Assembly (NCBI GenBank): GCA_019247135.1
Contig: JAFAPL010000653.1
Span: 1-7,154, forward strand
Direction: 5' to 3'
DNA length: 7,154 nucleotides
From: Chloroflexota bacterium
Lineage (GTDB): Bacteria > Chloroflexota > UBA6077 > CF-72
The position numbers and the translations under genes are program-made. Every line of letters starts with the position of its first letter. Position 1 is the stretch's first letter. Shown piece by piece: positions 4,746 to 6,762 of the stretch. The notes under the pieces are model-generated. The model had not been told where the DNA came from and did no database searches. It saw only the letters and a list, made by a program, of their open reading frames with translations.

Positions 4746-5177
4746 GTGGACGCGAGCGACCGGGACTGGCTGGCCCAGGCCCGCCGCGGCGTTGTCGAGC
4801 TGTGCGTCCTGTTGCTCCTCGACCATGAGCCTACGTATGGCTATCAGCTGGGTGCCGCGCTGCGCGCCTGGCAGCCGCTGGCCGCTCCCGAAGGCACGCT
4901 GTACCCGCTGCTGCACCGTTTGACTCGCCAGGGCGTCCTCGACATCGTGTGGCGAGAAGGTGACGCGGGCCCTCCCCGCAAGTACTACCGCCTCACCGAC
5001 TCGGGCAGGCAGCTGCTTGAAGCCCAACTGACCGAGTGGCACGAGCTCACGCGCGCGGTCGCCGAGCTGCGCGACCGCAACAACGACGAGGACAAGGGGG
5101 TCCCCGATGGATCGCGACGCAATCTCACGTTATCTGAGCGAACTGCGGCGGCACCTGGCGCGACTGCCGCACGCTGA
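4746..5177 (+). CDS. PadR-family winged-helix transcriptional regulator
   Basis: The 143-aa product from GTG 4746 matches the PadR pattern throughout. It has a first helix ending in [20 protein letters not shown] (16-35), the recognition region [18 protein letters not shown] (48-65), the wing [17 protein letters not shown] (75-91), and a C-terminal helix (about 92-111) for dimerisation. PadR proteins are dimeric DNA-binding repressors, often autoregulatory, that respond to small molecules or partner proteins. An ATG at 4665 is in frame but would add 27 residues that match nothing in the family. GTG 4746 sits at the natural domain start and at the predicted +1 of a promoter. The last 23 or so residues lie in a 71-bp overlap with the next gene in another frame and look like low-constraint tail. 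PadR genes are often followed by a DUF1700/HAAS protein gene, as here. The ligand and operator are unknown. Confidence 0.9.
5094..5100 (+). promoter_or_regulatory. Shine-Dalgarno of the HAAS-AtpD gene, inside padR
   Basis: AAGGGGG lies 6 nt before ATG 5107. It supports translation starting at the HAAS domain rather than at an internal AtpD start, and coupling to padR, whose ribosomes read through this region. Confidence 0.6.
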
Positions 5178-6762
5178 GCGCGACGACGCCGTCCGAGAGA
5201 TCGACAGCCACATCGCCGACGCCTGCGCCGACGGTATGCCCGTCGTGGCCGTACTCGCCCGCCTCGGCGACCCGGCGTTGCTCGGCCGTGCGTACGAGTC
5301 GGACTACTTTTTCCAGCTGCAGCTCGAACAGCCGCTGCCCGATGATTTCGGCCCTGCCGAGTCAGACGACGAGCGCGGGCGGGTCGTACGCATCGTCGGG
5401 CCCGTGGTGGACGTCCAGTTCGCGCCCTTGCATGCGCCAGAGATCCACGAGGCGCTCGAGATCGAGCTCGAGGACGGCTCGGTGCTCGTGCTCGAGGTGC
5501 AGCAGTTGCTTGGCAACAACCTGGTGCGCACGGTCGCGATGGGCACGACAGATGGGCTTTCGCGCGGTGTACGGGTCCATTCGACGGGTGGGCCGATCAG
5601 CGTACCTGTTGGCGAACCTACTCTTGGTCGCGTGCTCGACGTGCTCGGCCACCCGATTGACGCGCGAGGGCCGATCGACGCTGGGGAGCATCGGCCGATC
5701 CATCGTCCCGCGCCGCGACTGACGGACCAGACGGTGGCCCCGCGGATGTTCGAGACGGGCATCAAGGTCATCGACCTGATCGCGCCGTTCCCGAAAGGCG
5801 GAAAGGTTGGCATCCTGGGCGGGGCCGGTGTCGGCAAGACGATCATCATCCAGGAGCTGATTCGGAACGTCGCGACCGAACATGGCGGCTACTCGGTGTT
5901 CACCGGAGTGGGTGAGCGCACACGCGAAGGCAACGAGCTCTACAACGATCTGCTCGAGCGGCAGATTCTGGACAAGGTCGCGCTCGTGTTCGGCCAGATG
6001 AACGAGCCGCCGGGTGCGCGCCAGCGCGTCGCGCTCACCGGCGTGACACTCGCCGAATTCTTCCGCGATCAGGGTCGCGACGTGTTGTTGTTCATCGACA
6101 ACATCTTCCGTTTCACCCAGGCAGGTGCTGAAGTGTCCGCGCTACTGGGCCGCTTGCCGAGCGCGGTCGGTTATCAGCCCACCCTGGCCAACGAGATGGG
6201 CGAGCTGCAGGAGCGGATCACCTCGACACGCGACGGCTCGATCACGTCCCTGCAAGCCGTGTTCGTTCCGGCCGACGATTTCACCGACCCCGCGCCCGCG
6301 GCGACGTTCGCTCACCTCGACGCGGTGATCAGCCTCGAGCGGTCGATCATGGAGCGCGGCATCTTCCCGGCCGTCGATCCGCTTTCATCCACGAGTCGGA
6401 TTCTCAACCGCGCGGTGGTCGGCGACGAGCACTACGAGGTCGCGCGGGAAGTGCAGCGCGTGTTGCAGCGCAGCAAGGAGCTCCAGGAGATCATCGCCAT
6501 CCTCGGGATGGACGAGCTCTCAGAGGATGACCGCCAGCTGGTCTTCCGCGCGCGTCGCCTCGAACGCTTCCTGAGTCAGCCCATGTTCGTGGCCGAGGTG
6601 TTTACTGGACTGCCCGGACAGTACGTGCCCGTGGGCGAAACGATCAGAGGTGCTCGGGAGATTCTCGACGGGCGCTGGGATCACTTGCCCGAGTCGGCCT
6701 TCCTGTTCGTCGGCCCGATCGACGAAGCCGCCACCAAAGCCGGCGGCCTCGTTGCCGCATAG
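5107..6762 (+). CDS. atpD: HAAS/DUF1700-type domain fused to a complete F1-ATPase beta subunit (AtpD-like)
   Basis: The product is 551 aa, against about 460-480 for normal AtpD. Residues 1-66 form a helical domain ([15 protein letters not shown], then [15 protein letters not shown], then ARLGDP) typical of the DUF1700/HAAS proteins that accompany PadR regulators. An acidic linker follows (about 70-90). The rest is full-length F1 beta: N-terminal barrel from [15 protein letters not shown] (91-105), Walker A GGAGVGKT (238-245), [10 protein letters not shown] (267-276) with catalytic Glu270, Walker B LLFIDN with Asp331, [17 protein letters not shown] (344-360), VPADDFTDP (387-395), and DELSEDD (469-475). 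The residue matching E. coli beta Tyr331 is Phe420, and the usual QRYKEL reads QRSKEL (454-459). No in-frame ATG, GTG or TTG lies just before the barrel, so the fusion appears genuine. It has no membrane helices and no signal peptide. No other atp genes are nearby, so it may be a paralogue with a regulatory or non-canonical role rather than the main ATP synthase subunit. It overlaps padR by 71 bp. Confidence 0.93.

Follow-up and report, generated by a model that had tools for sequence, protein, structure and literature searches.

A HAAS domain fused to a duplicated ATP synthase beta subunit, encoded beside a padR gene in Chloroflexota

F1 beta is among the most conserved proteins. In the window, by which we mean the whole 7,154-nucleotide stretch of Chloroflexota DNA analysed here, an open reading frame joins an N-terminal HAAS domain to an F1 beta (AtpD) part, and a padR gene lies directly upstream. 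Proteins of this type are hereafter named “fusions”, and G293 designates a second genome that encodes one; the total of 42 fusions used in counts includes that of the window. The features of the locus are as follows.

2429..4635, + strand: neighbouring genes ddl (2429-3571) and murG (3568-4635), context outside the module, found by profile search
4712..4739, + strand: promoter/operator-like block TGCGGNNCAAGGTANCTNNNGGTACACT ahead of padR, 28 nt, common to the padR promoters of the window and G293
4746..5177, + strand: padR, PadR-family winged-helix regulator, 143 aa, GTG start (PF03551, 69.2 bits)
5094..5100, + strand: ribosome-binding-site-like AAGGGGG ahead of ATG 5107; in G293, GGAGG at equal spacing before the same ATG
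5107..6762, + strand: HAAS-AtpD fusion, 551 aa, no internal stop
5131..5286, + strand: HAAS domain, Pfam PF22564, residues 9-60, 61.7 bits against a cut-off of 27; G-x-P at residues 54-56
5326..5373, + strand: linker, residues 74-89, low model confidence (AlphaFold)
5374..6744, + strand: F1 beta (AtpD) part, residues 90-546; NCBIfam atpD TIGR01039, 753.6 bits against a cut-off of 462.85
5818..5841, + strand: P-loop GGAGVGKT, residues 238-245; K and T retained in 42/42 fusions
5947..5949, + strand: residue 281 (E. coli beta-E192), D in the window and in 42/42 fusions
6511..6531, + strand: DELSEDD (DELSEED motif), residues 469-475, mostly retained among fusions

The initial annotation had described a 90-residue N-terminal domain of HAAS/DUF1700 type. 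Its nature is confirmed by the PF22564 score, and residues 1-97 on their own reach 66.4 bits (cut-off 27), but its extent has to be reduced: in the models, HAAS proper covers about residues 3-73, the remainder up to residue 89 being linker. A HAAS domain has been described as a set of three helices with a kink in the third at G-x-P, and 2O3L is named as a solved protein of the superfamily (PMC11237479, in part). The AlphaFold model of the window HAAS (mean pLDDT 87.0) has this architecture, with helices at 3-16, 22-41, 46-53 and 56-73 and a break at G54-D55-P56. Across the 42 fusions, the glycine of G-x-P is found in 42/42 and the proline in 25/42. Fold searches with the HAAS model gave weak matches, and a sequence profile of four HAAS domains retrieved nothing with E < 0.1 from the PDB. 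In a PDB sequence search with the window fusion, all matches among the 60 of 221 listed start at residue 82 or later, so that no listed match spans the HAAS domain. Downstream of HAAS, Pfam recognizes ATP-synt_ab_N (93-161), ATP-synt_ab (218-430) and the C-terminal domain (437-518). The full-length AlphaFold model (mean pLDDT 54.6) is of low quality except for HAAS and the N-terminal beta barrel, and its AtpD part was left unused.

In the database, the window protein appears as P0002, a gene model of 508 aa starting 43 codons downstream of ATG 5107; it was left out of all counts. We favour the long start, because of the AAGGGGG ahead of it and the GGAGG found at equal spacing in G293. The late start of P0002 removes most of the HAAS domain, and further fusions may be hidden by such gene models. 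An Rfam search returned zero matches.

The adjacent padR had also been pointed out, and it is borne out by the PF03551 score: at both readable loci (2/2, window and G293) padR adjoins the fusion upstream with overlapping frames, the overlap of its 3' end with the start of the fusion being 71 nt in the window and 50 nt in G293. The GTG start of the window padR was picked by comparison with G293 padR. This arrangement matches that of HAAS domains in general, which are described as always adjoining a standalone PadR gene (PMC11237479, in part), and which have been proposed to act as relays through which a conformational signal of the fused domain reaches PadR, via a groove at G-x-P (PMC11237479 and PMC12419801, both in part). 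Within the 28-nt block, a TACACT box ends 6 nt upstream of the GTG, so that the padR transcript may be leaderless. Allowing up to 3 mismatches, the block has a single match in G293, at its padR, and none in two related genomes, G370 and G307; zero copies were found in the 19-kb atp region of G293. As the pattern was built from the window and G293 promoters themselves, this distribution of a block of putative function only suggests local autoregulation. A scan of window positions 4600-7154 for the sigma-70 consensus found zero promoters.

We searched 5.8 billion proteins with residues 1-97 of the window fusion and obtained 25 hits, one being the window's own protein and 24 others; a second protein search, with P0012 as query, gave 37 hits, of which 17 were new. 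According to precomputed Pfam labels, all of the resulting 41 further clusters carry HAAS together with the AtpD nucleotide-binding domain, so that an absence of the N-terminal domain from close relatives, envisaged at the outset as a refutation, does not hold, with the proviso that these relatives were themselves found via HAAS. A rescan of six of the 41 confirmed the domain (PF22564, 45.1-59.9 bits), as it did for the G293 fusion (55.3 bits). Where the source gives a name, it is 'F-type H+-transporting ATPase subunit beta' or similar, and for P0008 and P0024 it is 'F0F1 ATP synthase subunit beta [Chloroflexi bacterium]'. The 42 fusions have a median pairwise identity of 0.69 in HAAS and of 0.85 in AtpD. 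A chimeric join or a frameshift near 5340-5380 had been envisaged as another possible refutation. The same join recurs in the 41 clusters and in the independent genome G293, and an assembly or annotation artefact, for which no support was found beyond the late start of the P0002 gene model, can be practically dismissed.

Two overlapping draws of 400 genomes each from the phylum contained one fusion genome, G293; the fusion occurs in 1/29 genomes of the class of G293 and in 0/158 of the class of G001. The other hits in these draws were ordinary HAAS genes beside padR, in G470 and in G495, the latter from the first draw alone. Ordinary PadR-HAAS pairs from two other genomes of the phylum (L087 1082-2043, L088 1138-2102) encode HAAS proteins 187 and 194 aa long, whose C-terminal parts are hydrophobic. 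When genome contigs were scanned with the whole protein, the best 80 of 587 relatives all matched from residue 77 or later; among plasmid records, the best 10 of 553 matched from residue 104 or later, and the single AtpD match among viral contigs was partial (residues 253-540). A protein search with residues 1-90 of P0022 returned only P0022 itself among 7742 candidates. Since the window query had found P0022, that search was insensitive, and the family may be larger.

A second, canonical atpD, which the initial annotation had proposed to look for, was found in the relative G293, within an atp operon. On a contig other than that of the fusion, this genome has one operon with a, c, b, delta, alpha, gamma and ordinary beta, Pfam confirming every one of them; its single epsilon gene lies further along the same contig, and it has one gamma. 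PF00006 is found at four places in G293, namely alpha, ordinary beta, the fusion and one more, which we take to be FliI; there is no second alpha. As the separate full gene set includes an ordinary atpD, the G293 fusion is an orphan duplicate, and its HAAS is the sole HAAS domain of the genome. The ordinary atpD of G293 is followed not by atpC but by three GvpL/GvpF-family genes (PF06386; 233, 188.7 and 107.5 bits; L106 9872-12830, G293:C161), the epsilon gene lying about 11 kb beyond them. Mis-binning may be suspected, as the two AtpDs of G293 sit on separate contigs and the quality of the assembly is unstated. Against it, the AtpD tree described below groups both with the AtpDs of G370 and G307 in a single clade, and the genes neighbouring the fusion resemble those of G307 (PurA 91.5%, FtsH-like 93.7%, Ddl 76.7%, MurG 73.7% identity).

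Unlike a canonical atpD inside an atp operon with alpha and gamma, the window fusion adjoins padR, ddl, murG and an ftsH-like gene. The possibility of a second F1 operon at this site was considered and rejected, the neighbours of the window and G293 fusions including no F1 genes. In G293 the order is rfbB, purA, a 755-aa ORF, fusion (-), padR (-), ddl, murG, a small ORF and the ftsH-like gene. The window, whose sequence ends soon after the fusion so that the genes beyond it lie mostly outside, shares this gene content between the ftsH-like gene and the fusion. Relative to the small ORF and the ftsH-like gene, the ddl-murG block of the window and G370 is inverted compared with that of G293 (L105, L130, L131). 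G370 is arranged like the window except that padR and fusion are missing, a gene similar to the 755-aa ORF and murG ending 10 nt apart, and in G307 purA directly adjoins ddl; neither genome contains a match to the HAAS part. The relatives therefore differ in whether this one place carries the padR-fusion cassette, which, being missing from the matching place in these assemblies of G370 and G307, looks dispensable. The ftsH-like gene of the window (1-1677, - strand, cut by the window edge) encodes a divergent FtsH-like AAA protease, with 271.6 bits against an FtsH cut-off of 600. Just downstream of the fusion (6773-7072) are three copies of an 84-nt intergenic repeat (100%, 86% and 70% identical to the first), which contain the near-palindrome TCAACTTG(G/C)CAAGTTGA; the outer arms of the first copy pair.

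A tree built from 117 AtpD parts groups its 24 fusions in a single clade (SH-aLRT 99), to which the ordinary AtpDs of G293, G370 and G307 are the sister group, the joint clade being again supported at 99. Together with the related proteins, this tree also points to Chloroflexota as the source of the window. Fragments (P0001, P0013), short sequences (L102, L104) and duplicate loci had been left out. As the sister group consists of ordinary AtpDs of the same order, this points to an origin of the fusion by atpD duplication inside this order, rather than by joining of HAAS to a foreign AtpD. The ordinary AtpDs of these three genomes (L103, L092, L095) have an insertion of about 20 residues in their N-terminal part, which the window fusion does not have.

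The AtpD part of the fusion diverges faster than ordinary AtpD, as judged from the sequence pairs at hand: identity is 84.2% between the window and G293 fusions (one pair) versus 91.8-94.3% in three canonical pairs, MurG identity being 72-76% in all six pairs. The FtsH-like protein is 93.7% identical between G293 and G307 and 83.5% between the window and G293, which suggests that G293 is nearer to G307 than to the window, so that part of the gap in AtpD divergence reflects age. The rank correlation of site variability with outside AtpDs is 0.67 for the fusions versus 0.77 and 0.74 for canonical sets. Selection was estimated on the single window-G293 pair, where dS is near saturation: dN is far below dS for all three segments, with dN/dS of about 0.08 for HAAS, 0.09 for AtpD and 0.25 for PadR. 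The values for HAAS and AtpD, the retention of both domains in 41 clusters and the intact core catalytic residues reported below all make a vestigial or moonlighting paralogue with no regulatory role very improbable, even though the cassette is missing from the matching place in two relatives.

The initial annotation had spoken of an intact AtpD. This is right for the core catalytic residues, and has to be qualified by changes that are fixed and specific to fusions. E. coli residue numbers were checked on Rahnella AtpD, counted without the first Met. K155, T156, E181, R182, D242 and R246, which we take to be catalytic on the basis of their E. coli numbers and roles, are retained in 42/42 fusions, as is N243. 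Loss of catalysis, i.e. a pseudo-ATPase, was therefore rejected as a probable reading of the sequences. Three rows of the 42-row residue table stop short of the later positions (two at some); in the 39/39 rows that reach them, the catch-loop residues D302, T304 and D305 as well as Y354 and R358 are retained. Counted over 39, DELSEED residues are kept for E381 (39), L382 (39), D386 (38), S383 (37), D380 (36) and E384 (34); E385 is D or E in 36/39 and T or Q in 3/39, and E384 is replaced by P in one fusion and by V in another. The catch loop and DELSEED are presumably gamma contacts, and Y354 and R358 presumably belong to the non-catalytic site shared with alpha. More globally, of the 171 columns with a uniformity of 97% or more among 93 canonical rows, 163 are retained in at least 90% of 39 fusions, or 162 when 23 fusions are compared. 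The 39-fusion column count leaves out the fragments P0001, P0013 and P0040, and P0008, a near-copy of the G293 fusion, is out of both counts.

Eight positions at least 90% uniform elsewhere are altered in fusions: F148L, V157I, E192D, M193L, S196R, Y297F, D372E and F427A. E192D and S196R are found in 42/42 fusions, and E192 is kept in 13/13 canonical rows of the same class and in 79/80 other canonical rows; the open-access literature on E192 gave nothing relevant among the matches listed. Because some of the changed positions (F148L, V157I, E192D and Y297F, by our assumption) lie close to the nucleotide or catalytic site, altered nucleotide handling by the fusion beta is possible. A change of the adenine pocket was rejected as a hallmark of the fusion: Y331F and F404M are fixed in fusions, but ordinary AtpDs of the class already have F in 6/13 and M in 10/13.

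Two functions had been proposed at the outset, either an F1 beta nucleotide switch recruited as sensor or output of a PadR/HAAS module, or a beta subunit that regulates ATP synthase by taking the place of the normal one. The first would correspond to a free-standing adenylate sensor, in which beta, outside F1 and as a monomer or homo-oligomer, would move HAAS and free PadR upon the ATP/ADP open/closed change, and so switch transcription according to energy. The orphan gene without an alpha partner of its own, the faster divergence and the four changes, fixed or nearly so, assumed above to lie near the nucleotide site all speak for it, as does the role attributed to HAAS of passing signals from its fused domain to PadR (PMC11237479, in part). 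We nevertheless judge it unlikely, as the fusions retain the catch loop, most of DELSEED and Y354/R358, parts that would presumably be useful mainly inside F1. The retention of rotary and alpha-interface residues favours an F1-entering beta over a free sensor, without settling the matter.

The fusion could also be a regulated effector only: PadR would time the production of the isoform, and HAAS would mainly keep a feedback grip on PadR or slow F1 down, beta then being slow or inhibitory, with no sensing of energy. Changes near the catalytic site could slow turnover, and in Listeria a housekeeping machine has a second copy controlled by PadR, HAAS-FtsW/RodA (PMC11237479 and PMC6624303, both in part). 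This option is less probable again, because a simple promoter switch would have no need of HAAS, which is conserved across the 42 fusions, themselves found by HAAS.

The reading that we prefer, tentatively and at somewhat less than even chance, is that of a HAAS-PadR pair whose HAAS-fused part is a duplicated ATP synthase beta that would still enter F1 heads, and would act as sensor, effector or both. PadR would repress its own padR-haas-atpD operon. Once made, the fusion beta would fold and bind ATP or ADP, and enter alpha3beta3gamma heads alongside, or replacing, ordinary beta. Its N-terminus being at the crown, HAAS would stand on top of F1, where it would hold PadR via the G-x-P groove, and release or alter its hold when the nucleotide or conformational state of beta changes. 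The outcome would be an ATP synthase isoform under regulation, with its energetic state acting back on its own transcription. The recruitment of F1 beta as sensor or output, as initially proposed, fits the HAAS-PadR scheme of PMC11237479 (in part), and is to be taken as a presumption. Support for the preferred reading comes from the HAAS and AtpD scores, the 41 further clusters, the upstream padR at both readable loci, the separate atp gene set of G293, the retained catalytic, catch-loop and alpha-interface residues and the low dN of the window-G293 pair, as well as from the transduction proposed for HAAS-PadR pairs in the same source and from an N-terminal precedent in the G1-ATPase (PMC11864180, in part). 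It is weakened by the lack of alpha, gamma or other F1 genes next to the fusion and of a second alpha in G293, and also by the faster AtpD divergence, the lower site-variability correlation, a DELSEED that is not strictly kept and a G-x-P proline present in 25/42 fusions.

In a bolder form, which we consider somewhat unlikely, ATP synthase itself would be the receptor: a HAAS-beta built into F1 would tether PadR at the crown and release it according to nucleotide or rotary state, thus reporting energy status to transcription. The locus suggests that in some Chloroflexota a part of ATP synthase is wired into gene regulation. If this is true, ATP synthase, or a duplicate of its catalytic subunit, would be physically and directly connected to gene regulation. 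The fusion also offers a defined, soluble and testable sensor for HAAS-PadR systems, whose signal transfer is a proposal in the papers cited here.

Among known systems, canonical AtpD (TIGR01039) shares with the fusion its sequence, its domains and the core catalytic and rotary residues; the fusion differs by the N-terminal HAAS, the orphan site beside padR and the eight altered near-invariant positions. The alternate F1F0 beta (TIGR03305) is an additional F1 beta besides the housekeeping one. The fusion is likewise an extra F1 beta, but no alternate atp operon surrounds it, and its score (558.6 bits) is below the TIGR03305 cut-off of 752. It is also below cut-off for the MSC_0618 F1-like beta family NF045934 (404.3 bits, cut-off 570) and for NF045858, which we take to be the G1-ATPase beta family (520.9 bits, cut-off 850).

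The beta homologue of the G1-ATPase of Mycoplasma mobile (PDB 9io5) has an N-terminal region that takes up phosphoglycerate kinase, with a linker along the crown (PMC11864180, in part). Like the fusion, it is homologous to F1 beta, has a helical domain and a linker added at its N-terminus, and retains a DELSEED-like loop; unlike the fusion, it recruits phosphoglycerate kinase, serves gliding and has its own G1 alpha and gamma (same source, in part). By analogy, the G1-ATPase is a structural precedent for the beta N-terminus as a docking point. In Listeria, a HAAS-bearing protein of the FtsW/RodA family is linked with PadR repressors, so that, as here, an extra copy of a housekeeping machine bears HAAS in a PadR-controlled setting; it is a membrane protein of the cell wall, whereas the fusion is a soluble nucleotide-driven rotary subunit (PMC6624303 and PMC11237479, both in part).

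The closest likeness is with the HAAS-PadR two-gene systems of PMC11237479 (in part), with an N-terminal HAAS above the Pfam cut-off, a helix break at G-x-P and padR directly upstream. Fusion partners named for those systems are PspC, LiaI-LiaF-TM, VanZ, FtsX-like and FtsW/RodA membrane domains, Toastrack and pentapeptide repeats; here the partner is F1 beta. The terms 'ATP synthase' and 'AtpD' have zero occurrences in the main text of that paper, and no description of a HAAS-AtpD fusion was found in the open-access literature, a scope that takes in few subscription papers, in agreement with the initial annotation, which knew of no described example. HAAS-PadR pairs and a beta paralogue with a recruiting N-terminal region are thus known separately, and their combination in a HAAS-AtpD protein appears to be new.
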